Notes under the pieces: model-generated | Seen by the model: only the letters and a program-made list of their open reading frames with translations | The model's database searches: none | What the model was told of the DNA's origin: nothing | Position numbers and translations under genes: made by a program | Shown here: one piece after another, positions 18,608-56,947 of the stretch | Position numbering within the stretch: the stretch's first letter is position 1 | Layout: every line of letters begins with the position of its first letter | Virus record (IMG/VR): IMGVR_UViG_3300007609_001486 | Location: 18,511 to 82,510 of that record | Strand: one strand, 5' to 3' | Source of the DNA: a virus | DNA length: 64,000 nt

Positions 18608-19564
18608 ATGAAGAAATTAAAAGTAGAAAGAGCATCTATAGAAATTTTTGGTGGCTGTAACTATAAATGCGTAATGTGTCCCCAGTCGAAAGGAAGGGGC
18701 TCGTCGTGGACTCGGAAAATGCCATTACCACATTTTGTAAAATTGCTCGATCAATTAGACGGCAATCCTCTTATACAATTAGAAGGTTCGGGAGAAGCGT
18801 TTCTTGCAAAAGACTTAGATTTATATATTGCTGAATGTTCTAAAAGAAATATGAAAACATTCGTTAAAACAAATGGCTCTTTCAACACAACTCTTATGGA
18901 TAAATGTCTAAAAGCGGGGTTGACGTACATCAGATTTAGCGTAATAGGGCATGACAGACTTTCATATAAGAAAAATATGTCTGTTGATAACTTTGACTTG
19001 ATCATGGATAATATAACATATTGTATTGATCAAATAAGAAAAAAGCATTACAATTGCGAAATTAGCATATATCACATTTTATTGTCTTCTGATGACGAGG
19101 AACTCCAAAAATATAAAACAATAGCAAAAAAACTAAACTGTAAATCATATGTTTGGAAAATGCACAATTGGAGCGGTAACATTGATAGTAAAAATAGAAA
19201 AATTGTTAATAAGCGCAGAACTTGTGGCCGACCTTTTGCTAATGAAATTACAATTAGAGCAGGAGGAGAACCGGGCAGATATGGTGCGGTAACACCCTGC
19301 GCACAAACACTAGGACCGCCCAATGAGACAAAGAGTGTATTAGGATATTCTGACAAAGAAAGTTTACATGATATATGGAATGGAGCTTTATACAACGAAC
19401 TAAGAGAAAAACATCTCAAGGAAGACTTTGATAATATAGATTATTGTAAAAAATGTGACTTTTTATATGATGATCCTGACGTGTTAGTTTGGACAAATGA
19501 TGAGGCTACCGATGTAGGTGATATACAAGGGACTAGCCTAAATTTATTAAGGCATTTAAAATGA
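18608..19564 (+). CDS. Radical SAM protein with C-terminal SPASM-like Cys tail
   Basis: C17-x3-C21-x2-C24 (G-G-C-N-Y-K-C-V-M-C-P) binds the 4Fe-4S cluster that cleaves SAM. L-E-G-S-G-E-A near residue 60 stands for the GGE motif. The C-terminal third carries R-T-C-G-R-P, then T-P-C-A-Q-T, a H-D-I-W-N segment and Y-C-K-K-C-D, which is typical of SPASM modules binding auxiliary clusters. SPASM enzymes usually modify peptides or proteins, though some act on other molecules. It is ATGA-coupled to the next gene. It is the first of the radical SAM genes and does not belong to the A, B or C families defined by its neighbours. Confidence 0.88.
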   Translation: MKKLKVERASIEIFGGCNYKCVMCPQSKGRGSSWTRKMPLPHFVKLLDQLDGNPLIQLEGSGEAFLAKDLDLYIAECSKRNMKTFVKTNGSFNTTLMDKCLKAGLTYIRFSVIGHDRLSYKKNMSVDNFDLIMDNITYCIDQIRKKHYNCEISIYHILLSSDDEELQKYKTIAKKLNCKSYVWKMHNWSGNIDSKNRKIVNKRRTCGRPFANEITIRAGGEPGRYGAVTPCAQTLGPPNETKSVLGYSDKESLHDIWNGALYNELREKHLKEDFDNIDYCKKCDFLYDDPDVLVWTNDEATDVGDIQGTSLNLLRHLK

Positions 19565-20511
19565 AACTTGACCGAGACATATCCGACTTACCTCGTTTAC
19601 CCAACGAAGCATACGAATGCTTCAAAAATTATTTCTTTTATTACTTACCAAAATACCCCACTAGAAATATCTTAAAACAAGCGTTATGGGATCCAAACAG
19701 AGTGCCCGAATATGCTGAGCCTCACCGTTATTTAAATTTGGATTATAAAATGATGAAATTTTATCATACAGTGCCGGCGATAAAAAGTTATGCAGAACAA
19801 TTGTGGTTTTTAGTTTCAAGCATAGATCAAAAAGGAATACAAAGTCCATTATGTTCGGAGAATCTTAAAACTTTCCATCCTGGGGGTAAAAGGTATGCAA
19901 TTGCAGGTTATTTAGATATTCCCACAATGCCTGTACTTTTACAATCAACCAAAAAAATTCAAGAATATAACAGTCGGCAATTGCATCATTTATTTGAAAT
20001 TACAAATTTATATAATAATCAGTGTAGTATGAAAGTTAGAAAAGACACTGGTGCCTTGGAAGTTTCTTGGCATGGCGAAACTTCAATGCGTGACAATAAT
20101 GGTTATGATGATTGGAGGAAAAAAGCAGACAATGTGCTATCAAATACGAATACGAATACAAATTTTAACATACCAAAGTTTTTGCTACAAAACGGACTAG
20201 ATGTTGTTAATAAATTTAGGGTAGGAACAAAAATTGACGGTATTTTTAAGACAAATTATTGTAGGAAATCTAATAGCCCTATCAAAATTATAATTGATGA
20301 TATCAAGTATATTGATTTAGATTTGTGGGAGCTATATTTTCATATAGATCCCACTGTGCATTTGAAGGTAGATAAATCAAGTTACATACAGATTGTAAAT
20401 GAAATTGCTTCTAAAGACATTGTTTATAATAACTGTAGATTATTAGAAACATTAACTAGAAAAAAAATTTTTACAGCAGAGACTGTGTTACTAAACAGAA
20501 AAGGCAGATAA
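19561..20511 (+). CDS. Unknown protein, 316 aa
   Basis: It is translationally coupled to radical SAM genes on both sides (ATGA upstream, TAATG downstream), so it is probably part of the same pathway. Aromatic- and Pro-rich N-terminus (Y-F-F-Y-Y-L-P-K-Y-P). The middle has H-P-G-G-K-R and S-W-H-G-E-T-S-M-R segments, the latter possibly a ligand-binding loop. A short Asn-Thr repeat (N-T-N-T-N-T-N) follows, coded by a tiny tandem repeat near 20144-20161. There is no Cys cluster and no known domain I can name. Confidence 0.55.
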   Translation: MKLDRDISDLPRLPNEAYECFKNYFFYYLPKYPTRNILKQALWDPNRVPEYAEPHRYLNLDYKMMKFYHTVPAIKSYAEQLWFLVSSIDQKGIQSPLCSENLKTFHPGGKRYAIAGYLDIPTMPVLLQSTKKIQEYNSRQLHHLFEITNLYNNQCSMKVRKDTGALEVSWHGETSMRDNNGYDDWRKKADNVLSNTNTNTNFNIPKFLLQNGLDVVNKFRVGTKIDGIFKTNYCRKSNSPIKIIIDDIKYIDLDLWELYFHIDPTVHLKVDKSSYIQIVNEIASKDIVYNNCRLLETLTRKKIFTAETVLLNRKGR

Positions 20512-21593
20512 TGTATACATATGATGATATAAAAGAAGTTCATTTAGAAGTAACACAGCGGTGTCAAGCATCTTGTCCTATGTGTGACCGTAATATGAAC
20601 GGCGGTGCAGATAATCCACATATAACAAACGCAGAACTAACACTTGCAGATTGCAAACGTATATTCAAACCAGAATTTATCAAACAATTAAAAACGATGT
20701 ACATGTGCGGCAATTTAGGCGATCCTATTGTTGCTAGAGATACGCTGGATATTTTTAAATATTTCAGGCAGCATAATCCAAGCATGTGGCTCAGTATGAA
20801 TACAAATGCAGGAGCAAGGGACGAAGACTGGTGGACTGAACTAGCTGATACATTGGGAAGAATGGGTGCTGTCATTTTTAGTGTAGACGGACTGAAAGAC
20901 ACTAATCATATATATAGGCAAGGAGTGAATTGGGAAATCGTAGAAAGGTCAATGCAGTCATTTATAAGGGCAGGCGGCCGAGCTAGGTGGGATTTTTTAA
21001 TTTTTCAACACAATGAACATCAGGTCGAAGAAGCAGAACAACTTGCAAGATCCTGGGGAGTAGAAAGATTTATAAAAAAGAAATCAGGCAGATTTGTTAC
21101 ATCAGATATTAAACCAAAAGAACTGCATCAAGCAATTAACAGAAAAGGTGAACATACGGCCAAAATAGCAAAGCCAAGTAAAGAAGTTAATGTTAATCTT
21201 GCGTTACAAAAGCAAAAAGAAATTGAAAAAACATATGGTAGTATGAAAGAGTATCTTAACAAATGTTCAATTAATTGCAAGGTTGCAGAACAAGGTAGTA
21301 TATTCATAACGGCAGAAGGTTTACTGATGCCATGCTGTTGGACAGCAGGTCGTATGTACAAATGGTGGCACCAAGATCCTAGGGTAGAGCAAATTTGGGA
21401 TCACATAGAAATGGCCGGCGGCAAAGAGGGCATAAACGTAATAAATAACGATATACAAGATGTAATTAATGGTAACCTAATAAAAAGTATTAGTGATAGC
21501 TGGTCGCTCACTGGAGTGGAAAATGGAAAATTAGGAGTTTGCGCTCAGAAGTGCGGTTCCGATTTTGATCCATTTTCTGAACAGTTCAAATAA
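20511..21593 (+). CDS. Radical SAM/SPASM protein, type B (360 aa)
   Basis: C18-x3-C22-x2-C25 (R-C-Q-A-S-C-P-M-C-D) is the SAM-cleaving cluster site, and a conserved M-C-G-N-L-G-D-P replaces GGE. S-V-D-G-L-K-D-T-N-H-I-Y-R lies near residue 130. The C-terminal SPASM-like module has K-C-S-I-N-C, then G-L-L-M-P-C-C-W and a final C-A-Q-K-C-G. The same plan recurs in the split gene at 22876-23953 and in the gene at 31611. Its 3' end overlaps the convergent gene by 49 bp. The expected substrate is a peptide or a polar small molecule; unknown. Confidence 0.88.
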   Translation: MYTYDDIKEVHLEVTQRCQASCPMCDRNMNGGADNPHITNAELTLADCKRIFKPEFIKQLKTMYMCGNLGDPIVARDTLDIFKYFRQHNPSMWLSMNTNAGARDEDWWTELADTLGRMGAVIFSVDGLKDTNHIYRQGVNWEIVERSMQSFIRAGGRARWDFLIFQHNEHQVEEAEQLARSWGVERFIKKKSGRFVTSDIKPKELHQAINRKGEHTAKIAKPSKEVNVNLALQKQKEIEKTYGSMKEYLNKCSINCKVAEQGSIFITAEGLLMPCCWTAGRMYKWWHQDPRVEQIWDHIEMAGGKEGINVINNDIQDVINGNLIKSISDSWSLTGVENGKLGVCAQKCGSDFDPFSEQFK

Positions 21594-22819
21594 AATTCTC
21601 TAAGTTCAGGAAACGTAGATGTAAAATCTGTGTTTCTCAGCGCATCAAATTTTTGTAGACTGCTAGCAAATCTAGTTTTTGCAACATGTAATTTATTATC
21701 AGCTTCTCTTGTGTTTAGAAATGATTTAAGATGTGCTATATTCCAAGAATTGTTTCCTTGTATAATATTATTCAAAATATCTAGTTGTTGATTGGCTTGT
21801 GCAAATAATTCTTCGTCTACCTGTAAAAACTTTGCAGTGTATGGTAAAGGATCGTACCAAGGATTTATTTTTCTATCTCTTCGGTCGACTTTAGTATTGT
21901 CGTCATACCATTGATATAGTTCTGCCAAGTGTAGTGCATTAAATACACTATAACAAGTTTGAATATTTACATTAACATTTGCATTTTGCAAATTATTCAA
22001 AGTTTCTAACCATTTCTGCTGTTTTAGTCCGTAACGAACATATTCACCTTGTTTGCCATGTCCGTCGTGGCTGATAGTTATAATGCACTTTTTACCCCAT
22101 CTTGCGAGGTAGTCGTCAATAATGTTTATGCTTTTGTATTTGCTTATACTGCCATTAGTGTGAGACCAGATTGTAATTTTTTTATGAAGATTGTGTTTTA
22201 TCATTATTTCTAAAAGCTCATGGACATCTTCTTGCATAAAAGGTTCGCCGCCGTTTAGATGTATTTTTTCTATACTGTCTTGATGCTTTAGAATATAGTC
22301 TATTTTATTATCATTATTATTTCTCCATAATTTTGAATTTAGACTATCGCTATTGCATCCGTGTGCTAAGGCAAAAGCCTCGTTATAATTTTGTGCAATA
22401 GTGCTAGATAGTTCTCCATTACAACCAAGGCATGCAAAGTTACATTTATTGGTCCATAAAAAATCTAACATCACTGGAAATTGTTGCTGCATATACCCGG
22501 TTGAATCGGTTGCAATTATTGCCTCTTTAATTTTCGATCTTCCAAATTTATTAGAGGCATCTCTTACATCTGCAATTGAGCCTGTTTCTTTTTCAAAATT
22601 AGAACATGTATCGCATTCTTTAGGGAAAGTATTGTTGAGGAAAGATTTTCTGATATTCTTAAATTTCTCATTGTTAACAATAGATTCTAGATCTGCTTGA
22701 TGTGTAGATCCTAATTCTGTATACATTGCACAACATGCAGTTACTTTACCAAACTGTCCTTCGTATAGAGAAGTAAATGGCGCAGCACAAAACTTGTCGC
22801 CCATTTTGTTAGATACCAT
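21545..22819 (-). CDS. Radical SAM protein, type A (N-terminal twitch-like module)
   Basis: 424 aa. An N-terminal Cys module comes first: K-F-C11-A-A-P-F, C29-C30, then P-K-E-C-D-T-C near 66-72. The radical SAM core follows with C126-x3-C130-x2-C133 (K-C-N-F-A-C-L-G-C) and L-N-G-G-E-P-F near residue 190. The order of auxiliary-cluster module before core is the reverse of ordinary SPASM proteins. The C-terminus is helical, with no further cluster motif. It is a single-gene minus-strand island with its own late promoter, convergent with the upstream type B gene and divergent from the next. Confidence 0.88.
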   Translation of the reverse strand: MVSNKMGDKFCAAPFTSLYEGQFGKVTACCAMYTELGSTHQADLESIVNNEKFKNIRKSFLNNTFPKECDTCSNFEKETGSIADVRDASNKFGRSKIKEAIIATDSTGYMQQQFPVMLDFLWTNKCNFACLGCNGELSSTIAQNYNEAFALAHGCNSDSLNSKLWRNNNDNKIDYILKHQDSIEKIHLNGGEPFMQEDVHELLEIMIKHNLHKKITIWSHTNGSISKYKSINIIDDYLARWGKKCIITISHDGHGKQGEYVRYGLKQQKWLETLNNLQNANVNVNIQTCYSVFNALHLAELYQWYDDNTKVDRRDRKINPWYDPLPYTAKFLQVDEELFAQANQQLDILNNIIQGNNSWNIAHLKSFLNTREADNKLHVAKTRFASSLQKFDALRNTDFTSTFPELREFYLNCSENGSKSEPHF

Positions 22820-22840
22820 AAAAATAATTTCCTTAAATAC

Positions 22841-22869
22841 TTGACCTAAATATTTATAAAGTGTATTAT
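22841..22869 (+). promoter_or_regulatory. Possible sigma70 promoter with ATG at the predicted +1
   Basis: TTGACC (22841-22846), a 17-bp spacer and TATTAT (22864-22869). The predicted +1, about seven bases after the -10, coincides with the A of ATG 22876, which would make the mRNA leaderless. It overlaps the minus-strand late motif at 22851-22858. Confidence 0.45.
22851..22858 (-). promoter_or_regulatory. T4-type late promoter (TATAAATA) for the minus-strand radical SAM gene
   Basis: Read on the minus strand this is an exact TATAAATA. T4 spacing gives +1 near 22845 and a leader of about 26 nt with AAGGAA before the ATG at 22819. Confidence 0.65.
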
Positions 22870-22875
22870 AGTGTA

Positions 22876-23502
22876 ATGTTTGAATTAGAGTCTCTTAATA
22901 AAATTGAATTAGAAATTACTAGTAATTGTAATGCTGCTTGTCCGGGTTGTGCAAGAACGCTTAATCCTGATAAATTTTCAATCAATACGATAACTTTTGC
23001 CGATATAAAACAAATGTTCCCTTCACGTAGCACAATCGAAGGTAAAAAATTTAAATTCTGCGGAGTTTTAGGAGATCCTGCTTTTAATAAAGAATGTGTA
23101 GATATGGTAGATTACCTAGTTTCGTATGACGGGTTTTGTGAAATTAGCACAAACGGAGGAATACAGTCGGCCGACTGGTGGTCTAAATTAGGCAAAATAG
23201 CCTCAAGTAGTCCTAACTTACTCCATATACATTTTTGCGTCGACGGTTACAAAGAAACTAATCATATATATCGTGTTAACACAATATATGATGTTATTGA
23301 TAGAAATATGCAAGCATTTTGTGATTCAGCTCCTCCTAATCACGCTAGTTGGATTTATATAGTATTCGATCATAATGAACACGAATTACTATTAGCTGAA
23401 CAACGTGCAAAAGAATTAAATTTTATGTTTGCAACTAGAACCGGTATGCGTAATAGTTACAACGAATGGATTGCTCAAATTAAGAAGAAAAAAAATGTCT
23501 AA
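22876..23502 (+). CDS. Radical SAM protein type B, N-terminal half of a split gene
   Basis: 208 aa from ATG 22876. This start was chosen because it gives exactly the same distance to the first cluster Cys (C18) as in both intact type B siblings; an upstream GTG at 22861 is possible. C18-x3-C22-x2-C25 (N-C-N-A-A-C-P-G-C), F-C-G-V-L-G-D-P and C-V-D-G-Y-K-E-T-N-H-I-Y-R match the sibling at 20511. The frame stops in T-A-A right after a run of eight A, just where the siblings continue into their SPASM-like half. That half is the next gene. Confidence 0.8.
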   Translation: MFELESLNKIELEITSNCNAACPGCARTLNPDKFSINTITFADIKQMFPSRSTIEGKKFKFCGVLGDPAFNKECVDMVDYLVSYDGFCEISTNGGIQSADWWSKLGKIASSSPNLLHIHFCVDGYKETNHIYRVNTIYDVIDRNMQAFCDSAPPNHASWIYIVFDHNEHELLLAEQRAKELNFMFATRTGMRNSYNEWIAQIKKKKNV

Positions 23503-23953
23503 CAAAATAATAATAACAACAACAGGTTCTAAAGAACACAGTAAAAAAGATATAGTACAAGAACTAGATAATTTTATTAAAGAATATGAAGATCATAACC
23601 TTGATGAGGAAAAACTCAAAGAAGTTCTTAATAGTATTGTATGCAAATATGTGCACGAAGGAGAAATTTTTATTGCTAGCGATAAAACAGTTTGGCCGTG
23701 CTGCTTTCTCTGGGATAGTTATTTTAGAAACAAAGACAATATAAAAGAAACATTTTCTGACTTTAGAGAAAACTGGAATAGTTTACAGGAAAATAACATT
23801 GATGATATTTTGTCTCATCCTTGGTTTAAAACCATACTAGGAGAAAGTTGGGACCCTCGACACCCCAAGCATATTAGTCGTTGTATTAGAACGTGTGCTA
23901 AGAATAAAGCATACCACAATGAAATAAATTACAAAGATACCACGAACAAATAA
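23495..23953 (+). CDS. SPASM-like C-terminal half of the split radical SAM gene
   Basis: 152 aa from ATG 23495, which overlaps the upstream stop (ATGTCTAA, 8 bp). It has no radical SAM core, but carries the C-terminal module of type B enzymes: a Cys in I-V-C-K-Y, K-T-V-W-P-C-C-F-L-W, a N-N-I-D-D-I-L segment matching N-D-I-Q-D-V-I of the sibling at 20511, and a final C-I-R-T-C-A-K-N. Either two subunits assemble into one enzyme, or a frameshift at the A8 run joins them, or one base is wrong. The identical ATGTCTAA junction between real genes at 32656 favours coupled translation. Confidence 0.75.
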   Translation: MSNKIIITTTGSKEHSKKDIVQELDNFIKEYEDHNLDEEKLKEVLNSIVCKYVHEGEIFIASDKTVWPCCFLWDSYFRNKDNIKETFSDFRENWNSLQENNIDDILSHPWFKTILGESWDPRHPKHISRCIRTCAKNKAYHNEINYKDTTNK

Positions 23954-23982
23954 CATACTGATGTATAAAGGTAAGTAAATTT

Positions 23983-25395
23983 ATGAAAAATAAAATATCC
24001 GATACCTGGTGCATTCTGCCCTGGGTACATTTAAGCACTCGGCCTGATGGAAGTATGAGGGTATGTTGTACAGCAAATGCAAGTTCGGTAGGTCCTACTA
24101 ACGATAAAGAACACGGCGGACAAGTTGGTATACTAAAAACTGAAGACGGAAAACCTAACAATCTAAATGTAAGCGACTTTGAAACAGCATGGAATAGCAC
24201 ATACATGCGCAATGTGCGCAAACAAATGCTTAATGGCGAAATACCTCCGAGTTGTGTGAAATGTTTTAAAGAAGAAGCAGCCGGTCATAACAGTAAAAGA
24301 ATGTGGGAAACACACTACTGGAGCCAACGAGTTGATGTAGATAAGTTAATTCAAAATACTGCCGAGGACGGTAGTGTTCCTCCTCAGTTGGCATATATTG
24401 ATTTGCGATTTGGTACTAAGTGTCAATTAGCGTGTGTAATGTGTTCTCCCCATGACAGTTCGGGCTGGATTAAAGACTATAAAGCAATTTTTCCAGCAGT
24501 AGAAAATGCATCACTAAAAGAAACTATGCAGTGGCAGGACAAAGGAAGTTATAACGGAAGTAGTTATAATTGGCATAAACAGAATCCTGTATTCTGGGAG
24601 CAGTTCTATGAGCAAATGCCAAATATGCAGCAAATTTATTTTGCAGGCGGCGAAAGTCTTATTATCGAAGAGCATTACGAAATATTAGAGCATGCAATAA
24701 AAATGGGATATGCGAAAGATCTTGAATTGCGTTATAATTCGAATGGTGTCGAATGGCGAGAAGATTTATTTGATTTGTGGAAAGAGTTTAAATTAGTTCG
24801 ATTCCATTATAGTGTTGATAGTATACACAAAATGAATGACTATATTCGTTATCCAAGCAAATGGGACAGAACACGAGAAGTGTTCCATATTTTAGATAAA
24901 GAAACATCAAATAATGTCGAAGTTACTGTTGCTTGTGCAGTACAAGCATTAAACATTTATTATATTCCTGATTTCATTCGTTGGAAACTAGAAGAAGGAT
25001 TTAATAAAATTAACATGTGGCCATTTGGAGCGGGCGGTGTTAACTATCATTTTGTATATCATCCTCCGCACTTAAATGTTAAAGTATTACCCAAATGGTT
25101 TAAAGAAGAAGTACGCAGAAAATATGAAGAATTTTATCCATGGTGGGAAGAAAATTGGGAATTAGGTGTCCCTAATTGGCATCGAGGCAAAGTTACAAAG
25201 GAACAGTTTATGGAAGCAGGATATGGGATTAAACGCTTGAAAGGAATGCTACAGTTTATGGAAAGTGAAGACTGGAGTATACGTTTACCTGAAATGAAAG
25301 AATTTTTAGATTTATGCGATAAACAGCGCGGAATAACATTTGCAGAAACATTTCCAGAGATGAAAAATATTTTTAGTGAGGACCCTAATGTTTGA
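23983..25395 (+). CDS. Radical SAM protein, type A (470 aa)
   Basis: The N-terminal twitch-like module has W-C10-I-L-P-W, R-V-C28-C29 and P-P-S-C-V-K-C-F near residues 86-93. The core has C147-x3-C151-x2-C154 (K-C-Q-L-A-C-V-M-C-S-P-H-D-S-S) and Y-F-A-G-G-E-S-L near 222. Then come N-S-N-G-V and S-V-D-S-I strands of the half-barrel. The C-terminal 120 residues are Trp-rich and helical. It is closely related to the type A genes at 26208 and 32656. AAGGTAAG precedes the ATG. Its last 8 bases overlap the PP-loop gene. Confidence 0.9.
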   Translation: MKNKISDTWCILPWVHLSTRPDGSMRVCCTANASSVGPTNDKEHGGQVGILKTEDGKPNNLNVSDFETAWNSTYMRNVRKQMLNGEIPPSCVKCFKEEAAGHNSKRMWETHYWSQRVDVDKLIQNTAEDGSVPPQLAYIDLRFGTKCQLACVMCSPHDSSGWIKDYKAIFPAVENASLKETMQWQDKGSYNGSSYNWHKQNPVFWEQFYEQMPNMQQIYFAGGESLIIEEHYEILEHAIKMGYAKDLELRYNSNGVEWREDLFDLWKEFKLVRFHYSVDSIHKMNDYIRYPSKWDRTREVFHILDKETSNNVEVTVACAVQALNIYYIPDFIRWKLEEGFNKINMWPFGAGGVNYHFVYHPPHLNVKVLPKWFKEEVRRKYEEFYPWWEENWELGVPNWHRGKVTKEQFMEAGYGIKRLKGMLQFMESEDWSIRLPEMKEFLDLCDKQRGITFAETFPEMKNIFSEDPNV

Positions 25396-26215
25396 AGATA
25401 ATAATCTACTTTACAAAGACTTACATGAAAACTTAATCAAAGAAACAATTAGTGGTTTAGATATCTATCTAGATCCAAACTGGAAAAAAATTGCAGTAAA
25501 TCTCAGTGGCGGTGCAGACAGTGCATTACTAACCTATATAGTTTGCAGTATCATTAAAAAATACAAACTCAACATTCGAGTAAATGTTATTACATACCAA
25601 AGATGCTGGACAACTAGACCTTGGCAAGGATGGTGGAGTATACAGGTTTATAACAAGCTAAAAAGTTATTTTCCAAATATTATTGCAGATAGAATTACAA
25701 ATTATATTCCTCCTGAATTAGAATATGGAGTTTCTGGACCTATTATAGACGGTAGAAGTGGAGATCAAATTATTGTTGGAAGTTTCAATAAATTTGCTGC
25801 ATGGGAATATAATCTAGATGCAATTTTTAATGCTACAAGTAAGAACCCTGATAACGATACTAGAAGTGATAGAATGAATAATAGAGACGGTGATGCTGCT
25901 AGTGGAAATGTAAAAGATGTGTGGTCTCATAACGATACATTAAATGTTGTATTGGCGCATCCGTTTAAATATGTACAAAAGGATTGGATAGTAACACAAT
26001 ATCATGTGTTAGATATTATAGAATTGTACGATACAACAAGAAGTTGCGAGGGAGACATTAATCTTCATTCAGAAATTAAAAGAGCAGTACCCTCGGCGAC
26101 TGATTATGTAGAAGGCATGAAGATTCCAACTTGTGGAGAATGTTGGTGGTGTTACGAACGAGAATGGGCAGAGAGTAGAGTACAAACAATGATGGAAGCT
26201 CTTAACAATGTCTGA
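25388..26215 (+). CDS. PP-loop ATP pyrophosphatase (QueC/asparagine-synthase-like)
   Basis: 275 aa from ATG 25388, chosen because it gives the 8-bp overlap usual here. The PP-loop S-G-G-A-D-S (residues 40-45) binds the pyrophosphate of ATP in enzymes that adenylate a carbonyl group. A C-terminal P-T-C-G-E-C-W-W-C resembles the zinc-binding Cys cluster of QueC-type 7-cyano-7-deazaguanine synthases. The middle (G-P-I-I-D-G-R-S-G-D-Q) is unlike QueC, so it probably activates another substrate, forming an amide, nitrile or thio group. It sits between two type A radical SAM genes with overlapping starts, pointing to a shared pathway. Confidence 0.75.
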   Translation: MFEDNNLLYKDLHENLIKETISGLDIYLDPNWKKIAVNLSGGADSALLTYIVCSIIKKYKLNIRVNVITYQRCWTTRPWQGWWSIQVYNKLKSYFPNIIADRITNYIPPELEYGVSGPIIDGRSGDQIIVGSFNKFAAWEYNLDAIFNATSKNPDNDTRSDRMNNRDGDAASGNVKDVWSHNDTLNVVLAHPFKYVQKDWIVTQYHVLDIIELYDTTRSCEGDINLHSEIKRAVPSATDYVEGMKIPTCGECWWCYEREWAESRVQTMMEALNNV

Positions 26216-27527
26216 CACATTTTGTCCTATACCTTGGATATTTCAGGCTGCTAGGGCAAACGGAGATCTGCGAGTTTGTTGTCAAGCCAATGTTACAGAA
26301 AATAGGGGCGTAATACGGAAATCCAACGGGAATGCTTACAATGCGGGATCGGATGACTTAGACGAAGCAAGAAACGCAGATATTATGAAAGAAATGCGTA
26401 TTAACATGCTCCAAGGTGTTTGGAATAACGAATGCGGAAGATGCAAAGCAGAGGAAGAAGCAGGTCTAAATAGTAGAAGACAATACGAAAATGAAAATTG
26501 GAATTTTTCTGTTCAAGATGCAGCATTAGTGACTGATGCAGATGGCACAATTGATGTAGAACAATCTCCTGTCCAATATTATGATTTACGGTTTGGAAAT
26601 TTTTGTAATCTAAAATGCCGTATGTGCGGACCAACCGATAGCAATGCCTGGTACGATGATTGGATTAAACTTACAGGTTCTAATTTTTTTAAAGAAACAA
26701 GCGGCAATGTAGAAATAAAAGAAGTAAACGGAAAATTGTGTGCGAGCGAATATGACTGGCCCAATCATGAACCGTTTTGGGAATATCTTGAAAAACATAT
26801 TGAAAACATTGGACATATCTATTTTGCCGGCGGCGAGCCAATGTTGATTGAACGTCATTATGATTTCCTACAACGCTGTATAGATCAAGGACATGCAAAG
26901 AATATAATTATTGAATACAATACTAATATGAGTACACTACCGCCTAGAGTATCAAAGATGTGGGAGAGTTTTAAACAAGTTCGTGTTGGCGCAAGCGTCG
27001 ACGGTTACGGTAAAGTTTTAGAGTATCAAAGATATCCTGCAAAGTGGGAAAAAATATATAAAAACTTGCAAACGCTAGACGCTATGCCAAAAAATATCTA
27101 TGGGTGGTTAGCGTTTACTGTTACAGCATACAATGTAAATCATATGATAGATTTTATGAAATGGAAACTGACTGAAAGTGGATTTACGACTATCAATAGT
27201 ACATTAAAACGTCCTGTTATTACGCATCATGTTGCTCATCATCCTAAGCACCTGAATATTAGAGTCTTGCCAGAAGATGCAAAACAAAAATTAACAAAAC
27301 GTTTTGAAGAATTTATAAAATGGATTAATGATAATAATTTTGAAAGCCATGTGGTAAAACATGCTACAGATATAGCAACTGGTGTTTGTAATTATATGAA
27401 TTCTGAAAGTTATTACGACACACATTGGAACGAATTTAAAACTTATACGAAGAAGCTAGATACCATGCGTAACGAAAGTTTATTTGAAATAGAACCTGCA
27501 TTTAAGGAATATATAGATGAGTTTTGA
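26208..27527 (+). CDS. Radical SAM protein, type A (439 aa)
   Basis: The N-terminal module has F-C6-P-I-P-W, R-V-C24-C25 and N-E-C-G-R-C-K near 70. The core has C133-x3-C137-x2-C140 (F-C-N-L-K-C-R-M-C-G-P) and Y-F-A-G-G-E-P-M near 206. The helical C-terminus includes the H-H-P-K-H-L-N-I-R-V-L-P segment shared with the genes at 23983, 32656 and, in part, 36109. It is followed directly, with an 11-bp overlap, by a type C radical SAM gene, an A-then-C order seen three times in the window. Substrate unknown. Confidence 0.9.
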   Translation: MSDTFCPIPWIFQAARANGDLRVCCQANVTENRGVIRKSNGNAYNAGSDDLDEARNADIMKEMRINMLQGVWNNECGRCKAEEEAGLNSRRQYENENWNFSVQDAALVTDADGTIDVEQSPVQYYDLRFGNFCNLKCRMCGPTDSNAWYDDWIKLTGSNFFKETSGNVEIKEVNGKLCASEYDWPNHEPFWEYLEKHIENIGHIYFAGGEPMLIERHYDFLQRCIDQGHAKNIIIEYNTNMSTLPPRVSKMWESFKQVRVGASVDGYGKVLEYQRYPAKWEKIYKNLQTLDAMPKNIYGWLAFTVTAYNVNHMIDFMKWKLTESGFTTINSTLKRPVITHHVAHHPKHLNIRVLPEDAKQKLTKRFEEFIKWINDNNFESHVVKHATDIATGVCNYMNSESYYDTHWNEFKTYTKKLDTMRNESLFEIEPAFKEYIDEF

Positions 27528-28728: not shown

Positions 28729-28732
28729 AGTT

Positions 28733-36109: not shown

Positions 36110-36135
36110 AATGTTACTTATCTCATATGGCTAAT

Positions 36136-36143
36136 TATAAATA
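36136..36143 (+). promoter_or_regulatory. T4-type late promoter (TATAAATA), five bases before ATG
   Basis: Exact TATAAATA followed by ATTTT and ATG 36149. With T4 spacing (-13 to -6), +1 is the A of that ATG, so the message would be leaderless. A second in-frame ATG at 36164 would have a 15-nt leader without a Shine-Dalgarno sequence. Confidence 0.65.
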
Positions 36144-36148
36144 ATTTT

Positions 36149-46645: not shown

Positions 46646-46650
46646 TCACT

Positions 46651-47265: not shown

Positions 47266-47285
47266 TTTTTATTATAGGAAAATAG

Positions 47286-48833
47286 ATGAAAATCGTGATT
47301 CTCGGTGGCGGCACAGCAGGTTGGATGGCAGCATCATATCTATCTAAACGCTTCCGAGATTTTAATTTAACAGTAATAGAAAGTCCAAATATTCCTCGAA
47401 TCGGAGTGGGAGAAAGCGTAACTCCTCATGTTGCACAATTCTTTACTGATCTTGGTATAGATACGCATACTTGGATGAAAGATACAGGAAGTGTATATAA
47501 GTGGGCCAACAAGTTTATTAACTGGCATAATGGAAATGACTATGAGTATTTTAGTTTTTCATATCCTACAAACACTGAAATGTTATATAAAGACATAGAT
47601 AAACCCTTTTCTATTGACCAGGTATATGGTGATAAGGATAATGAATTAAGTACGGATTATTTGTTAAAGTTATACAATGACGGGCATATAGATAAGTTCG
47701 ATAGGTATTTTAACAGCCAATTTTATTACATGGAAAATAATGTTGCTCCATTTGAAGGTACTACCCGGCTTCTAAATGTTCCATTTAGCGGTGCACAACA
47801 TATTGATGCAGAGAAAGCAGCTGATTTTTTAAAAGATAATGTTGCTCTTAGAAATGGAGTTGAACATCTTCAACATGACGTAGTTGATATTATAGTCGAC
47901 GGAGAAAATATAAAATATCTTGTCTTAGAAAGTGGAGAGCAAGTTGTAGCAGATCTATTCTTAGATGCAACTGGATTTAAACGCATCTTAACCAAAGCAT
48001 TAGGATGGACAACCGTAAAATATAAAAACAATCCTATAAACAGGGCATGGGTTTGCCCACTAGAATATGAAAACAAAGAAACTGAGTTACTCAATTATAC
48101 CCAATCCATTGCGCAAAACCATGGTTGGCTTTTTAAAATAGGACTAAATCACAGAATGGGCAGTGGCTATTGTTTTAGTAGTGAGTTTACAGATGATGAT
48201 GATGCGCTAAAAGATTATATGTCTATAACAAAAAATCACAAGGCTGAACCTAGATTAATTAAGTGGACACCTGAAAGATTAAAATATTCTGCAAAGGGTA
48301 ACACTGTTGCAATAGGATTAAGTTGTGGGTTTGTAGAACCAATGGAAGCCAATGCTTTGTATACTATTATTAATAGTATTGTTAGATTAGCTGAGACTAT
48401 TGAGTCATGTCGGAGTATAAACCTAATAGATTATACTGAGTATAATAATATAATTGCCCATGGCATTGATGATATTTCTGATTTTATACTCGTACATTAT
48501 ACATTAAGTAATAGAAAGACTAATGCTTTTTGGAACGAAATGTCTGCTTTAGGTGTCAGAAATAATCATATTGACCTTATGTACGAAAAATATAGGAGTA
48601 AGTTTAACACAATGTCTGCCGCCTTACAAGGTTATACAATGTTTCCACAGTACATGTGGGCACAACTAGCTACTTATTTGAAAATAGATACCTCCACATG
48701 GTATGACTTAAAAGAAGATGTTACATATGAAATTGCAAAACTGTACTTTAAAAATCTAGAACACAAGCATCGTCTTATTAGTTCAACTAGAATGAATAAT
48801 TCTCAGTGGTTATCTAAATATATTTTTCGATAA
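47286..48833 (+). CDS. Tryptophan-halogenase-like flavoprotein, divergent
   Basis: 515 aa. V-I-L-G-G-G-T-A-G-W-M-A at residues 4-15 and G-V-G-E-S-V-T-P are FAD-binding features. V-Y-K-W-A-N-K-F places K72 near the halogenase lysine. G-F-V-E-P-M-E-A-N-A is the second flavin motif. The W-x-W-x-I-P signature is degenerate (G-W-L-F-K-I-G), so the enzyme may be a halogenase with a different pocket or a monooxygenase-like relative. AGGAAA lies before the ATG. The 3' end overlaps the convergent gene by 31 bp. Compare the intact family member on the minus strand at 44455. Confidence 0.75.
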   Translation: MKIVILGGGTAGWMAASYLSKRFRDFNLTVIESPNIPRIGVGESVTPHVAQFFTDLGIDTHTWMKDTGSVYKWANKFINWHNGNDYEYFSFSYPTNTEMLYKDIDKPFSIDQVYGDKDNELSTDYLLKLYNDGHIDKFDRYFNSQFYYMENNVAPFEGTTRLLNVPFSGAQHIDAEKAADFLKDNVALRNGVEHLQHDVVDIIVDGENIKYLVLESGEQVVADLFLDATGFKRILTKALGWTTVKYKNNPINRAWVCPLEYENKETELLNYTQSIAQNHGWLFKIGLNHRMGSGYCFSSEFTDDDDALKDYMSITKNHKAEPRLIKWTPERLKYSAKGNTVAIGLSCGFVEPMEANALYTIINSIVRLAETIESCRSINLIDYTEYNNIIAHGIDDISDFILVHYTLSNRKTNAFWNEMSALGVRNNHIDLMYEKYRSKFNTMSAALQGYTMFPQYMWAQLATYLKIDTSTWYDLKEDVTYEIAKLYFKNLEHKHRLISSTRMNNSQWLSKYIFR

Positions 48834-50270: not shown

Positions 50271-50296
50271 ATTAATAGTTATCAAATAAGTACCAT

Positions 50297-50992: not shown

Positions 50993-51539
50993 AGTTGTGC
51001 CTTTTTCAGATGATCTAGATCTAGAATTATTCTACAAGAAAGCCAAAGAAAAAGGATTCGAAAATAATTCAACTAAACATATGTTAGTTGACTGTTTTAA
51101 AAATGAAAGAAAATCCCAGACTTGGATACTTTACTACGATAATAGTCCTATCGGATCTGTGGCAGCCCATTCATTTGACGAAATGGGGAAAAATTGCTAT
51201 AGAATAGCGGCCAGAACCTGTGCTTTTACAGATGAAATACCTACTCCTACGTTAAGAACAAGAAATCAAATAGTAACGCAACAGCACGTAACAGGACAAT
51301 TCCTTATACCTGCTTGTATTGAATGGGCAGGCAGGAAAAATAATCTTTATATTACTTCAAATAATCTTGAAGGCGGCAGTCAGCGTCTGGTACATACAGT
51401 ATATTTTCCAGCAATGGTAAAAACGGGGCAAGCTGAACATATTTGTGATATGTTATACAGAGGTGTTATGCAAAGCGTATGGAAACTAAATGTCGATAAG
51501 TACTATGAAGTATTAGGAAAAAATCCAAGATGGCAATAA
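50985..51539 (+). CDS. Possible GNAT-like acyltransferase (184 aa)
   Basis: ATG 50985 gives the usual 8-bp overlap; an upstream in-frame start inside the previous gene is rejected. Strands around W-I-L-Y-Y-D-N-S-P-I-G-S-V-A-A-H-S-F, then Y-R-I-A-A-R-T-C, resemble the central sheet of GNAT acetyltransferases, but the R-x-x-G-x-G/A CoA loop is not clear. R-T-R-N-Q-I-V-T-Q-Q-H and A-C-I-E-W-A follow. I cannot name a substrate. The call is tentative. Confidence 0.4.
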   Translation: MYKVVPFSDDLDLELFYKKAKEKGFENNSTKHMLVDCFKNERKSQTWILYYDNSPIGSVAAHSFDEMGKNCYRIAARTCAFTDEIPTPTLRTRNQIVTQQHVTGQFLIPACIEWAGRKNNLYITSNNLEGGSQRLVHTVYFPAMVKTGQAEHICDMLYRGVMQSVWKLNVDKYYEVLGKNPRWQ

Positions 51540-52666
51540 TTAAACAAATAACAAAGTTTTTACAATCATTTAAAGATAGAAAGTTGAAAGACACAGTAGC
51601 CCTTTGTGAAAATTGTTACAGACATTTGCCTGCTAGAACCTTTCAACGAGAGGACTCTATATGGTTATCAAAAGAATGTCCAGAGCACGGGTATAAAGAA
51701 TACATTATAGAAAAAGATGCGGATTTTTATCATAAGTTAGATTATGATACCCATGCTTATGATATTCCAGCAGGAATAATGGTCGAAGTTACAGACAAAT
51801 GTAATCTTAACTGTCCGCATTGTTATCATGAACCAGAAAATAAAACCACAGATAAACCAATTGATGATATATTAAAACAAATACAACAATGGCCTGACGG
51901 TGCAGGAAGCGTTATATTAGCAGGAGCCGAGCCTACTGTAAGAAAAGATTTGCCCGAATTGATATCCGAAATAAAGTCTTTGCAAGACCAATTAGGTCGA
52001 ACACATCAGGATATCAGCATTCTAACTAATGGTGTCAAATTCCATGATAAAAAATGGGTTAAACAAATTAAGGATGCAGGTTGCCGTGCGGTTATGATAG
52101 GATTAAATCATCCTTCATACCAGGGCGAAAAAGTTCATCAAAAGCAATTACAAGGTATAAGAAACTGCAAGGAAGCAGGTATCTTTGTTTATTATGTAGG
52201 GTATACGATAGAATCCTATGATCACTTACCATTTGTATTAAAAGAAATACAGGAATTGGGAGATACTGCATTTCAGTATAGGATTAGAGCAGGAAGCGAT
52301 ATTGGCAGAAATCCAGATGAACCTAGAGTTTTTCTCAGTGATAATGTTAAAGAAATTAAAGAATTAGTTGAGCAATACGGATGGGACTGGGAAAAAATTC
52401 CAGGGGATGATAACCTTTATCATTATATGGTAAACATAAATGGTATTACCCATAGGATTATTCAGTGGAGTGATGCCAAAACATTAGATCTCGAAGAAAT
52501 AAGATGTGGTCCCTGGTGTGACTTTGTCCCTGGCAAACCTATTTCAAATTTCTTACATCAAGTAATGTTGCGAGATTATGCTATAAATCAAAATAGAATA
52601 CTGTTTGATACAGTGCCTGAAAGATATACATTCAGAACAAGAGACCAAGTAAGGAAGGAACACTAA
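51530..52666 (+). CDS. Radical SAM protein with N-terminal zinc ribbon (tetraether-synthase-like)
   Basis: 378 aa. An N-terminal ribbon C26-x2-C29 with K-E-C50-P-E-H53-G is followed by the radical SAM loop C91-x3-C95-x2-C98 (K-C-N-L-N-C-P-H-C-Y-H). L-A-G-A-E-P-T near 130 corresponds to GGE. T-N-G-V and Y-T-I-E strands complete the half-barrel. This order (C-x-x-C, C-P-E-H-G, then core) is that of the archaeal tetraether-lipid synthase/MJ0619-like family, which joins or modifies hydrocarbon chains. Here only the architecture is shared; a lipid substrate is a hypothesis. Ten-base overlap with the upstream gene. Confidence 0.8.
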   Translation: MAIIKQITKFLQSFKDRKLKDTVALCENCYRHLPARTFQREDSIWLSKECPEHGYKEYIIEKDADFYHKLDYDTHAYDIPAGIMVEVTDKCNLNCPHCYHEPENKTTDKPIDDILKQIQQWPDGAGSVILAGAEPTVRKDLPELISEIKSLQDQLGRTHQDISILTNGVKFHDKKWVKQIKDAGCRAVMIGLNHPSYQGEKVHQKQLQGIRNCKEAGIFVYYVGYTIESYDHLPFVLKEIQELGDTAFQYRIRAGSDIGRNPDEPRVFLSDNVKEIKELVEQYGWDWEKIPGDDNLYHYMVNINGITHRIIQWSDAKTLDLEEIRCGPWCDFVPGKPISNFLHQVMLRDYAINQNRILFDTVPERYTFRTRDQVRKEH

Positions 52667-53684: not shown

Positions 53685-53694
53685 TAAATAACAT

Positions 53695-55314
53695 ATGTTC
53701 CAAGTTGTATTATTTACCGATGCTCCTTATCCCCATCATCGGATTCGTGGTTATGGAGTCCACAGAATTGCTAGCGAAATAAGAGCCAACGGGTATACCT
53801 GTTTAGTAGTAGATTTTAGTTCTGCATTAACATTTGAAAAATATAAAGAATTAATAGATAATGCAGTTGGACCTCAAACTCTAATGATAGGGTTTTCTAC
53901 CACTTGGCTTCCTTATCGTCTTCCTAATCAAGAAGGATATACAAACGAGATTCCCGGACATCGCATCGGAGATGATAATAGATTATCCAGCGATAAAGTA
54001 GAAAAACATAACTGGAGGACCGAAAATATGGTTGCACAGTTTGGAAAAGCTGAAGTCGACGAATGGTTACTCTATCCCAAAAAACTCAATCCCAGCGTAA
54101 AGGTTGTTTTAGGAGGTGCAAAAACAGATTTTTATATGGATTTACCTCATGTCGATAATTTTATCTTCGGTATTGCTGAAACTATGACTATAGATTATCT
54201 TAACAGTTTAAGCGGAAAAGGACCTGCTAAGATTTTTAACAAGTATATTGATTATGATCGCAAAGCACACAGACCTACCTGGGATTTTAGAGAAAGTCAA
54301 ACACAATACACAGAATGGGATTTCATACAACCTCAAGAAACACTTAATCTAGAAGTAGGACGTGGTTGCCGTTTTAAATGTGCATTTTGTAACTTTCCGC
54401 TCATTGGCCAAAAAAACGTAAACGATTACTTAAAATATCCGGAAAATATCAAAGACGAATTGCAAAAAAATTACGAACTCTGGGGTACCACAAAATATTT
54501 TATTGTAGACGACACGTTTAATGATAGCACAGAAAAATTAGAAATGTTGTGTAAGGTTATGGACGAGTTACCATTTGATATAAAATTTTGGTGCTACACT
54601 CGTGTTGATTTATTAGCGGCCAAACCCGAACAAATAGAATTAATGAAACATCTAGGTGTAGCAGAAACCTTCTTCGGTTTAGAAACATTTAATGATAAAA
54701 GTTCTCGCACTATCGGTAAAGGAATGCCATCTAGCAAAAGAAAAGATACTTTATATAAAGCAAAAGAAATCTGGGGAGAACGTGTGTGGATGGAAGGCGG
54801 ATTTATGATAGGTCTACCCTATGAAACCAGACAAAGTTGGAGAGACACTGTTGATTGGTTAAAGCGAGATGATTGTCCCTTAGATATATTTACATGTTAT
54901 CCTTTGAATATTACAAAAAAGACCGAACGAAATCAATGGTTCCCCCTTAGTTGGTTTGATGAAAATTATGAAAAGTTTGGTTATTACTTTCCTATTGAAG
55001 ACAACACTCTTGATGGTCTACTATATTGGGAAAAACAAGACGACACCGATATAGGTAATTTTTTTGAAGCCGCAAACATAGCAGAAGAAACAACAAAAGA
55101 ATTACAACCCTATCAAAACATTAGACGCGGCGATTTCTATGTAAGTTCTTTTAATGATTATAGGTTTCGTGACCGAGAAAAAACATTAGACATGTCTGTT
55201 ATAGAATATAAAAAACTTATAGATGGTGTTGATTTTGAGCAATTGTACTATAATACAGTAACAAAGGATTATTTCGATAAATTATTTAATAAATTAAAGG
55301 GGAAAAATGTTTAA
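53695..55314 (+). CDS. Radical SAM protein with B12-binding-like N-terminal domain, copy 1
   Basis: 539 aa. The first 200 residues look like a Rossmann-type B12-binding domain (V-V-L-F-T-D at the start, R-G-Y-G-V-H-R-I-A-S-E-I, L-V-V-D-F-S, K-V-V-L-G-G-A). The lower-ligand motif D-x-H-x-x-G is not clear (D-A-P-Y-P-H-H-R). The radical SAM loop is C225-x3-C229-x2-C232 (G-C-R-F-K-C-A-F-C). F-I-V-D-D-T-F-N and G-L-E-T-F-N are conserved strands of B12-type radical SAM enzymes, many of which are methylases. It overlaps its paralogue by 8 bp. ATTAAATA lies four bases before the ATG. Confidence 0.82.
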   Translation: MFQVVLFTDAPYPHHRIRGYGVHRIASEIRANGYTCLVVDFSSALTFEKYKELIDNAVGPQTLMIGFSTTWLPYRLPNQEGYTNEIPGHRIGDDNRLSSDKVEKHNWRTENMVAQFGKAEVDEWLLYPKKLNPSVKVVLGGAKTDFYMDLPHVDNFIFGIAETMTIDYLNSLSGKGPAKIFNKYIDYDRKAHRPTWDFRESQTQYTEWDFIQPQETLNLEVGRGCRFKCAFCNFPLIGQKNVNDYLKYPENIKDELQKNYELWGTTKYFIVDDTFNDSTEKLEMLCKVMDELPFDIKFWCYTRVDLLAAKPEQIELMKHLGVAETFFGLETFNDKSSRTIGKGMPSSKRKDTLYKAKEIWGERVWMEGGFMIGLPYETRQSWRDTVDWLKRDDCPLDIFTCYPLNITKKTERNQWFPLSWFDENYEKFGYYFPIEDNTLDGLLYWEKQDDTDIGNFFEAANIAEETTKELQPYQNIRRGDFYVSSFNDYRFRDREKTLDMSVIEYKKLIDGVDFEQLYYNTVTKDYFDKLFNKLKGKNV

Positions 55315-56947
55315 CGTAATATTATTTACAGACACTCCCGAAATGAATTCGCGGACAAGGGGTTACGGTGTTCACAGATTAGCTACGCATATAAGAAATG
55401 AAGGATATAGTTGTTTAGTGGTTGATTTTATGTCAGGTCTTACATTAAGCGATTACAAAAAAATTTGTGATTATGCTGTAGGAAACCAAACACTTATGAT
55501 AGGAGTATCACTAACATGGCTTCCTTATAGATTGGGATCTAATGAGTCAGGAGAAAATAAATTACAAACCCATGACCCCGGACGCGACATTCAAAACGGA
55601 ATTAAAGATAAGATTATAAACAAGGAATATGGGTATTTTTCAAATAAAATGAATTTGGCAATTTCAAATAATGATGTTGATCCTTGGTTCGACTATGTAA
55701 AGAAATTGAATCCAAATATAAAAATTTGCCTAGGTGGTTCTAAAATAGGAATGTATTTAGATATAAAAATGGTGGATCATTTTTTTGTAGGGTATTCTGA
55801 AACAATGTTAACTGATTATTTAGATAGTCTAAGCGGAAAGAAAGAGGGAATAATATGGAATAGAATTATTGACTATGATCCAAAAGCACAAAAACCAGTT
55901 TGGGATTTCACTTTAAGCCGAACGCAATACACAGAATTTGATTTAATTCAGTCTCAAGAGCCCCTATCATTAGAAGTAGGCCGAGGTTGCCGTTTTAAAT
56001 GTAAATTTTGCTCGTATCCTCTAATCGGAATGAAAAATATAAATTCTTATATAAAAAAATCGGATAATTTACGCGACGAACTTATTGATAACTATGAAAA
56101 ACACGGGACTACAAGGTATTTTATCATTGATGATACATTTAACGATAGCTTAGAAAAAGTAGAATATTTTTTAAACGTTGTAAAAAGCTTGCCGTTCAGA
56201 ATATATTATTGGTGTTATTTACGATTAGACTTGTTGGCGGCATTCCCTAAAATGATACCAATGTTGAAAGAATCAGGAATGATACAATGTTACTTTGGTA
56301 TAGAAACATTTAATGTAAAAGCTGGTAGATCTGTAGGGAAAGGTGGTAGACCAGATAAGCTGAAAGAAACCCTATATAAATGTAAAGAAATTTGGGGAGG
56401 AGAAGTTAGCATTCAGGCCGGCTTTATCGTAGGATTGCCTCACGAAGATTCGGAATCAATAATGAATACTGCTATGTGGTTAGCACGGCCAGATTGTCCA
56501 ATAGATATTAAATGGATTGTCCCTTTGAGTATTGGCGGTCCTAGTGAAGTAATGAAATATACATACACAAGTGAGTTCGACAGGAATTTTGAAAAATATG
56601 GATACAGCTTTCCTAATCCCGCCGAATTTTGGAAGTGGCAAAAACAAGATGGAACAGATATTACGTCAAGTGAAATTGCTGAAGATATATCGAAAAAAGC
56701 AGAGACTTTTTTGCAAAACAAGACATTTACAAAGGACTTAAATACTGCTAGTTTACCCCATCATGTATTATCTGATATAGAACTCACTGGATCAATGACT
56801 GCGGAAGATTATACACGCATAGTGCAAACAATTGATATACCTGAACTCTATCAAAGATCAGTCAAGATAGATTATTTTACAGAATTAATTGAAAAATTAC
56901 GCATAAAGCGGAATATATTTAGTAGTTCCGTTGACAGAGACTTCTAA
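55307..56947 (+). CDS. Radical SAM protein with B12-binding-like N-terminal domain, copy 2
   Basis: 546 aa, a tandem duplicate of the preceding gene. R-G-Y-G-V-H-R-L-A-T-H-I, then L-V-V-D-F-M, K-I-C-L-G-G-S; C228-x3-C232-x2-C235 (G-C-R-F-K-C-K-F-C); F-I-I-D-D-T-F-N; G-I-E-T-F-N. The N-terminal D-x-H-x-x-G ligand is absent (D-T-P-E-M-N-S-R), so if cobalamin is bound it is without a His ligand. It is the last gene of the accessory cassette and overlaps the tail-fibre gene on the other strand by 51 bp. Confidence 0.82.
   Translation: MFNVILFTDTPEMNSRTRGYGVHRLATHIRNEGYSCLVVDFMSGLTLSDYKKICDYAVGNQTLMIGVSLTWLPYRLGSNESGENKLQTHDPGRDIQNGIKDKIINKEYGYFSNKMNLAISNNDVDPWFDYVKKLNPNIKICLGGSKIGMYLDIKMVDHFFVGYSETMLTDYLDSLSGKKEGIIWNRIIDYDPKAQKPVWDFTLSRTQYTEFDLIQSQEPLSLEVGRGCRFKCKFCSYPLIGMKNINSYIKKSDNLRDELIDNYEKHGTTRYFIIDDTFNDSLEKVEYFLNVVKSLPFRIYYWCYLRLDLLAAFPKMIPMLKESGMIQCYFGIETFNVKAGRSVGKGGRPDKLKETLYKCKEIWGGEVSIQAGFIVGLPHEDSESIMNTAMWLARPDCPIDIKWIVPLSIGGPSEVMKYTYTSEFDRNFEKYGYSFPNPAEFWKWQKQDGTDITSSEIAEDISKKAETFLQNKTFTKDLNTASLPHHVLSDIELTGSMTAEDYTRIVQTIDIPELYQRSVKIDYFTELIEKLRIKRNIFSSSVDRDF

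Follow-up and report, generated by a model that had tools for sequence, protein, structure and literature searches.

A 64,000-nucleotide stretch of viral DNA (the window; bases 18511-82510 of the 82.5-kb IMG/VR virus record IMGVR_UViG_3300007609_001486) encodes sixteen radical S-adenosylmethionine (SAM) enzymes, here called rSAMs; genes are named by their start coordinate in the window. Comparison with related sequences indicates that the sixteen form two layers, a conserved ordered module at 15.2-31.6 kb and variable cassettes located mainly at 31.6-57 kb. The module runs 15184-16799-75 aa-20511-[22861]-23983-[25376]-26208-27517-30503, with other genes inserted between, and it includes a small protein of 75 amino acids (aa) that was absent from the initial annotation. 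The module genes and their close neighbours are:

12880..14551, + strand: two paralogous putative glycosyltransferases (GTs), 12880-13719 and 13712-14551, upstream of the module, with orthologues in relatives and no Pfam match
15184..16827, + strand: core two-domain glycosyltransferase of predicted GT-A fold (AlphaFold2, pLDDT 91.5), kept in phages and Bdellovibrionota
16799..17653, + strand: core methyltransferase-like protein with a weak Spermine_synth match (E=0.008), followed directly by the 75-aa gene in 80/80 loci
17650..17877, + strand: core conserved small protein of 75 aa, phage-specific
20511..21593, + strand: core trio rSAM 1, with CQASCPMC, an LGDP motif and a C-terminal Cys cluster
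22861..23502, + strand: catalytic half of a fissioned rSAM gene that is a frequent member of the core (PF04055, 23.0 bits)
23495..23953, + strand: SPASM-like half of the fissioned rSAM (SPASM, E=0.0011)
23983..25395, + strand: core trio rSAM 2, N-terminal twitch type (NF033640, 417 bits), 60-89% identical in 24 relatives; cellular orthologues 52-63%
25376..26215, + strand: core predicted PP-loop ATP pyrophosphatase with a C-terminal CxxCxxC-type cluster (AlphaFold2, pLDDT 91.6)
26208..27527, + strand: core twitch rSAM (NF033640, 373.7 bits)
27517..28728, + strand: core rSAM (PF04055, 4.5e-10), often in two copies in relatives
29944..30510, + strand: frequent accessory protein of no recognised fold; 37-39% identical homologues adjoin the trio in two Bdellovibrionota loci
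30503..31618, + strand: core trio rSAM 3, the most conserved (71-88%)

The ordered module was seen at 46 IMG/VR loci in a viral-contig scan with 26208 and at 80 further loci. The initial annotation had raised the recurrence of the same ordered set as a check, and the ordered core does recur in dozens of independent IMG/VR contigs; the lineage itself was found in at least 594 IMG/VR stretches. Identities in relatives were 70-89% for 23983 and 71-88% for 30503, equal to or higher than those of MoxR (58-81%) and VWA (47-69%). The core rSAMs are under strong purifying selection, with dN at 0.10-0.16, dS >1.4 or saturated, and pN/pS at 0.11-0.20 against the closest relatives. The earlier suggestion that so many rSAMs indicate a dedicated pathway rather than stray acquisitions is supported for this core, which is ordered and constrained and whose trio (20511, 23983 and 30503) occurs independently as a tight cluster on Bdellovibrionota chromosomes. 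It does not extend to the whole set, since ~10 of the 16 are variable cassettes and the segment at 31.6-57 kb is missing in the simplest relatives.

Searches of ten island or core proteins against PHROGs gave 0 matches, and PDB sequence searches with the core rSAMs, the PP-loop enzyme and the 75-aa protein returned weak or spurious matches only. The model of 15184 is predicted to have a GT-A glycosyltransferase fold: its leading Foldseek matches are GT-A enzymes or related nucleotidyltransferases at low TM-score, and domain 1 is closest in the PDB to SunS, WrtF and TarS at a TM-score of ~0.3 (fold-level similarity only). The model of 25376 suggests a PP-loop ATPase fold, with TtuA/NcsA, TilS, LarE and Cap9 (a protein of the cyclic oligonucleotide-based antiphage signalling system, CBASS; E=2e-5) as distant, fold-level matches. 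This protein has no Pfam match at all, to QueC (PF06508) or otherwise, and was not classed as QueC/Cap9-type.

Almost every relative with sequence across the site has the 75-aa gene, and IMG/VR scans found 476 and 382 stretches encoding the protein. No copy was found among 50,697 deposited phage records; neither 30503 nor the GT 15184 has a match among deposited phages, and 20511 has one weak match there. In 112 distinct copies of the small protein, 21 columns are at least 97% conserved, conservation runs over the whole length, and Cys is usually lacking. The gene following it is 20511 in 45 of 70 loci, usually ~5 bp away, and most of the other loci have insertions before 20511. In two near-complete genomes (L216 and L220) the small gene lies 17 bp upstream of 30503, and on the far more divergent contig G046:C1 it is directly downstream of 30503 (52% identity; hidden Markov model E=4e-18). 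A more diverged set of 75-aa genes has an rSAM within 4 kb downstream in all 64 loci with that much sequence. The gene thus moves, in three arrangements, yet stays with the same enzymes, and its product is therefore probably the partner or substrate of the trio rSAMs. The divergent contig is 161 kb long and was binned with Chloroflexi; its divergent module, 75-aa gene included, lies in a locus (L384; G046:C1 20001-40000, 1060-4600) with a GC content of 0.27. It has only a trace of similarity to the phage baseplate protein gp6 and likely represents another virus lineage.

We also found the trio in bacterial genomes. Searching 84,980 genomes with the alignment of 23983, by two short conserved peptide patterns and hence not exhaustively, yielded 30 loci, most of them on contigs of up to 937 kb from Bdellovibrionota metagenome-assembled genomes (MAGs). 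At the ~22 Bdellovibrionota loci 23983 (in 21), 30503 (in 20) and 20511 (in 17) are clustered, accompanied by the GT (15184) in 11 and by 16799 in 6. One locus (L176) is clearly chromosomal, with MoxR, SppA and PHP-type neighbours, and another (L178) holds a nearly full core. The trait is sporadic, as 30503 orthologues were present in 12 of 192 sampled Bdellovibrionota genomes. GT2 glycosyltransferases accounted for 13 of the 62 proteins scanned beside the cellular trio. In trees, the phage and cellular copies of 30503 and of 23983 formed separate clades with full support; the trio members therefore share one history, and the separation is consistent with few ancient transfers between phage and cells, in either direction. 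On a Bdellovibrionales chromosome (G048), trio members adjoin a homologue of the fibre-like protein 10365 and a phage-type GT block. That locus (L294; G048:C21 127060-139500) lies beside a pheT-like gene and holds trio members, additional rSAMs, the 10365 homologue, 12537, 12880, 13712 and 15184; it is a chromosomal copy of the phage-type block.

The count of sixteen rSAM cores between 18.6 and 56.9 kb, made in the initial annotation, was confirmed. PF04055 gave 16 matches across the whole 82.5-kb record, all within this range. Fourteen exceeded the curated cut-off, and the two under it, 21545 (26.9 bits) and 22861 (23.0 bits), are supported by NF033640 or related models. The CX3CX2C motif of the SAM-binding [4Fe-4S] cluster was found in all 16 rSAMs, and in 16 of the 101 open reading frames (ORFs) of at least 80 aa, compared with a mean of 0.435 after residue shuffling with composition kept (~0.4 expected). 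A GGE-type SAM-binding motif (GGE, GAE or LGDP) is present in most of them, and DDT takes its place in two class-B-like types. A lack of conserved SAM-binding positions in most cores, which the initial annotation named as a possible refutation, is excluded.

The claim of at least five architectures was likewise upheld by Pfam and NCBIfam, which support five. The first comprises six proteins with an N-terminal twitch part that score over the NF033640 cut-off (>170 bits across the whole model), namely 21545, 23983, 26208, 28715, 32620 and 34844; the family has no assigned function, and membership of these 6/16 rSAMs is uninformative on substrate. The others are cores that end in a SPASM-like part or a Cys cluster (18608, 20511, 22861 and 31611), short cores (27517, 30503 and 33958), a zinc-ribbon HMPTM/TrsS-like protein (51530), and the PhpK/HpnJ-like (class-B-like) 53695 and 55307, neither of which has a B12-binding Pfam match. 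Against the model of the antiviral rSAM viperin (NF038283, cut-off 180 bits), the best score was 43.7 bits, by 30503. Adjacent genes do overlap, over a wider range than the 4-10 bp first described: overlaps between the longest ORFs are mostly 8-16 bp, with extremes of 1 and 44 bp. Three of the genes are on the minus strand.

The core that had been described as split is a genuine gene fission. One rSAM gene is divided into ORFs 22861-23502 and 23495-23953 with an 8-bp start/stop overlap, and the second half has a weak SPASM match (E=0.0011). The identical fission occurs in L013 (first half 72% aa identity) and almost all remaining orthologues consist of one ORF of ~350 aa, so sequencing error was rejected as the cause. 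The break falls at an A-rich run.

That phages usually carry zero to a few rSAMs agrees with eight isolates scanned with PF04055 (SCTP-2 0, Atu_ph07 4, Phosso 4, Paride 0, Vibrio K566 6, HTVC008M 1, P-SSM2 0, T4 1) and fails for the lineage under study. Its records, a non-random sample since relatives were selected for carrying module genes, hold 3-22 rSAMs (32 relatives), 8-20 (14 large records) and 14-23 (six more, all larger than this fragment), or 3-23 each in the 52 related records together.

The variable rSAMs number ~10 of the 16 (18608, 21545, 28715, 31611, 32620, 33958, 34844, 51530, 53695 and 55307). In this genome, the region at 31.6-57 kb is a large variable insertion built of cassettes that recur piecemeal elsewhere, because in the simplest relatives the 58474-61134 block nearly follows 30503: ~2 unrelated ORFs come first, and the 26-kb segment is absent. 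The genes of the variable layer are:

17874..18599, + strand: SGNH-hydrolase-like protein (assigned by eye), a variable insert with a homologue in few loci
18608..19564, + strand: variable rSAM/SPASM (PF04055 1.4e-11, SPASM 1.1e-8), orthologues in only 3 loci
21545..22819, - strand: variable twitch rSAM (NF033640, 237.5 bits)
28715..29959, + strand: variable twitch rSAM (NF033640, 238.3 bits)
31611..33975, + strand: variable rSAMs 31611-32663 and 32620-33975 (twitch, 378.9 bits)
33958..36109, - strand: variable rSAMs 33958-34851 and 34844-36109 (twitch, 331 bits), a pair that recurs in G019 at 55/59% identity
36002..39153, + strand: cassette with two Asp/Arg-hydroxylase-like 2-oxoglutarate (2OG) oxygenases, 36002-36817 and 38440-39153 (PF05118)
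42568..43812, - strand: class-III aminotransferase (PF00202, 1.2e-41)
44455..45939, - strand: flavin-dependent tryptophan-halogenase family protein (PF04820, 6.9e-88)
45936..46574, - strand: 2OG-Fe(II) oxygenase (PF13759, 5.9e-17)
46651..47265, + strand: SAM methyltransferase (PF13847, 2.8e-12)
47286..48833, + strand: second tryptophan-halogenase family protein (PF04820, 1.3e-88), 28-33% identical to cyanophage halogenases
51530..52666, + strand: variable rSAM with N-terminal zinc ribbon, HMPTM/TrsS/Tes-like (PF04055 4.2e-21, PF23545)
53695..56947, + strand: two class-B-like rSAMs, PhpK/HpnJ-like, 53695-55314 and 55307-56947

The two halogenase genes of the island (44455 and 47286) are mutually divergent.

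We read this stretch as the host-recognition region of a jumbo phage with a contractile tail, in which the module and the cassettes lie between the tail-fibre genes and an Mtd-type receptor-binding gene. Like the host-recognition clusters of pelagimyophages and cyanomyophages, the island is bordered by tail-fibre and receptor-binding genes, here those of collar and Mtd_N proteins, and has variable cassettes inside. The flanking phage genes are:

4576..6927, + strand: tail-fibre protein with a phage tail collar domain (PF07484, E=2.5e-14), at the upstream island border
10365..11459, + strand: virion fibre-like protein (homologue in G048:C21, 32% identity, E=4.3e-89 with a profile)
56897..58135, - strand: receptor-binding-type protein with an Mtd N-terminal domain (PF18454, 6.9e-12), at the downstream island border
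58474..62219, - strand: conserved phage block of 58474, 59456, VWA/DUF2201 59733 and MoxR-like ATPase 61134

Upstream, outside the window, the record encodes a gp5-like protein (DUF2345/gpV OB), gp25 and the baseplate protein gp6. The latter is closest to those of the jumbo phages Salicola SCTP-2, Agrobacterium Atu_ph07 and Sinorhizobium Phosso (33-35%), the MoxR ATPase is closest to PA5oct-like phages (50%), and related records measure 182-275 kb, with one of 382 kb; by these similarities and sizes the virus is a fragment of a jumbo contractile-tail phage. The earlier label T4-like therefore fits in a broad sense only, as gp6 and MoxR similarity are jumbo-like. No host is claimed, since phage contigs were binned in MAGs with Neisseriaceae, Rickettsiales and Gammaproteobacteria, which conflict with one another. 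Bdellovibrionota are unsupported as host, and their genomes hold no gp6 of the phage. A giant virion ORF of 4,692 aa crosses the left window edge and ends at 3936; its versions in relatives are 3,151-5,320 aa long (L009 8368-18600 among them). The GC content is 0.34 in the island (window 12501-56890) vs. 0.41 and 0.44 in the phage genes flanking it on the left and right.

We tentatively propose that the product is a glycoconjugate or protein decoration, made by a dedicated tailoring pathway and used in host recognition or superinfection control. Judging from their families, the core rSAMs would generate the 5'-deoxyadenosyl radical by reducing SAM and would functionalise one precursor stepwise at its C-H bonds; three near-invariant rSAMs and up to three frequent ones would take part, the twitch and SPASM types carrying auxiliary Fe-S clusters. 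The PP-loop enzyme may use ATP to activate a carbonyl or carboxyl group so that a building block can be joined or thiolated, and the GT-A enzymes would attach the unit to an acceptor. The 75-aa protein could be a carrier or scaffold of the phage, or itself the peptide substrate. Cassettes of variable rSAMs, 2OG oxygenases, halogenases, aminotransferase and methyltransferase would add lineage-specific tailoring, and the product would decorate either the receptor-binding fibres of the virion or the infected-cell surface and serve in adsorption or superinfection exclusion.

The conserved order, the selection, the 75-aa gene that keeps to the rSAMs, the cellular trio with its GT2 neighbours, the separate phage and cellular clades, the GT-A and PP-loop folds, the flanking collar/Mtd_N proteins and the one Bdellovibrionales locus with a fibre-like gene speak for this proposal. 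Several observations count against it. The GT and PP-loop fold matches are distant (TM-scores 0.3-0.45), a hypervariable location is equally expected of plain cargo, and the 75-aa protein is absent at cellular trio loci and hence dispensable for the chemistry there. A fibre-like gene lies beside the trio in just 1 of ~19 trio genomes (G048), and fibre protein 10365 was accordingly rejected as an obligate trio substrate. A wider form of the proposal, which we regard as doubtful, makes the module a biosynthetic system (rSAMs, GT-A and PP-loop ligase) that modifies a dedicated 75-aa carrier or substrate and has been exchanged between jumbo phages and Bdellovibrionota, with recognition of Gram-negative hosts or prey as its role in both.

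The product might instead resemble a ribosomally synthesized and post-translationally modified peptide (RiPP), with the 75-aa protein as precursor and the rSAMs as maturases (thioether, cyclophane or C-methyl) of a secreted peptide or redox cofactor; this is conceivable, though we would not expect it. Across the phages the small gene tracks the trio, is translationally coupled to an rSAM gene and stays beside rSAMs after rearrangement, several NCBIfam near-matches are peptide maturases, the sole PDB sequence match of 23983 is SkfB, and SunS, a peptide S-glycosyltransferase, is the GT's weak top fold match. Against this reading, the 112 copies are conserved over their full length, with no variable core and usually no Cys, and the protein is missing from the cellular trio loci, near which no conserved small ORF of any kind was found. 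The Pfam matches of the island proteins scanned included no RiPP-type protease or transporter, and no RiPP recognition element, for which models were not specifically searched.

It is unlikely, in our estimate, that the module prevents superinfection by altering the lipopolysaccharide or capsule of the host, a role suggested for the GTs of similar pelagimyophage islands (PMC7029224). The GT-A enzymes of the module and the GT2 enrichment around the cellular trio would fit such a role, but the proteins scanned yielded no sugar-nucleotide enzyme, flippase or polymerase, and the number of rSAMs is far above that of known O-antigen tailoring. This explanation overlaps with the decoration proposal, and the two are not separable by sequence. 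Plain auxiliary-metabolic cargo, in which unrelated rSAMs that share no pathway pile up at a hypervariable hot spot (e.g., Fe-S boosting; PMC5332604), is improbable because the core order is constrained. It would account for the ~10 variable cassettes, shared piecemeal with other phages, and for up to 23 rSAMs in one record, but unrelated genes would not be expected to give an ordered, highly constrained core or the same trio co-occurring in cells, and no gene for Fe-S assembly stood out in the proteins scanned. Misassembly of host and viral DNA, which the initial annotation named as a possible refutation and to which the GC difference (0.34 vs. 0.41-0.44) might point, is excluded, since dozens of independent contigs show identical junctions, among them near-complete phage records of 180-275 kb and a near-identical second contig (L043).

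rSAM chemistry is difficult and oxygen-sensitive, and the enzymes come at a high cost in Fe-S clusters and SAM. A lineage that keeps a fixed rSAM set under strong purifying selection, and is as widespread as this one, must draw a substantial benefit from the product. The trio, its probable 75-aa partner and the GT make up a small reconstitutable unit, and therefore the question of why some aquatic phages hold at least 12 rSAMs, so far noted merely as a count, becomes testable. The Bdellovibrionota trio offers a cellular system for studying the same chemistry.

A high rSAM count as such is already known. The T4-like environmental marine virus TARA_ERS488813_N000010, likewise T4-related and very rich in rSAMs, was reported in 2017 to carry 12 rSAM genes, which were counted in the context of Fe-S assembly, with no order, core, small partner or cellular counterpart described (PMC5332604). 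Searches of the literature (Bdellovibrio and radical SAM; phage biosynthetic gene clusters and radical SAM) found nothing describing the module, and no mention of its ordered core, its 75-aa protein or its counterpart in Bdellovibrionota. The host-recognition clusters of pelagimyophages and cyanomyophages are similar large hypervariable islands at tail-fibre genes, with glycosyltransferases and, as reported for pelagimyophages in 2020, rSAM cassettes (PMC7029224). The present phage differs in being jumbo-like by baseplate and MoxR homology and in having a conserved, not variable, rSAM core. The jumbo cyanophage S-SSM6a carries a halogenase/2OG/carbamoyltransferase cluster (PMC7824862, 2021), in which halogenases, 2OG oxygenases and a methyltransferase are predicted to tailor a glycan or secondary metabolite. 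In the present island, by contrast, rSAMs dominate and halogenases are confined to the variable layer, and the carbamoyltransferase of the S-SSM6a core has no counterpart among the Pfam matches of the island proteins. The mosaic adhesive trimer fibres of Bdellovibrio, which are phage-like and function in prey recognition (PMC10769870, 2024), could provide a common setting for the trio, but they have no demonstrated link to rSAMs, and the fibre-like gene beside the trio is limited to the one Bdellovibrionales genome. Among cultured phages, the 255-kb jumbo isolate Vibrio phage K566 has its six PF04055 matches partly in adjoining genes, whereas a 30503 orthologue and the 75-aa gene were undetected in it, as in every deposited phage. 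With its adjoining rSAM genes (L299; 158659-165756), this isolate could be used to model phage rSAM islands in the laboratory.

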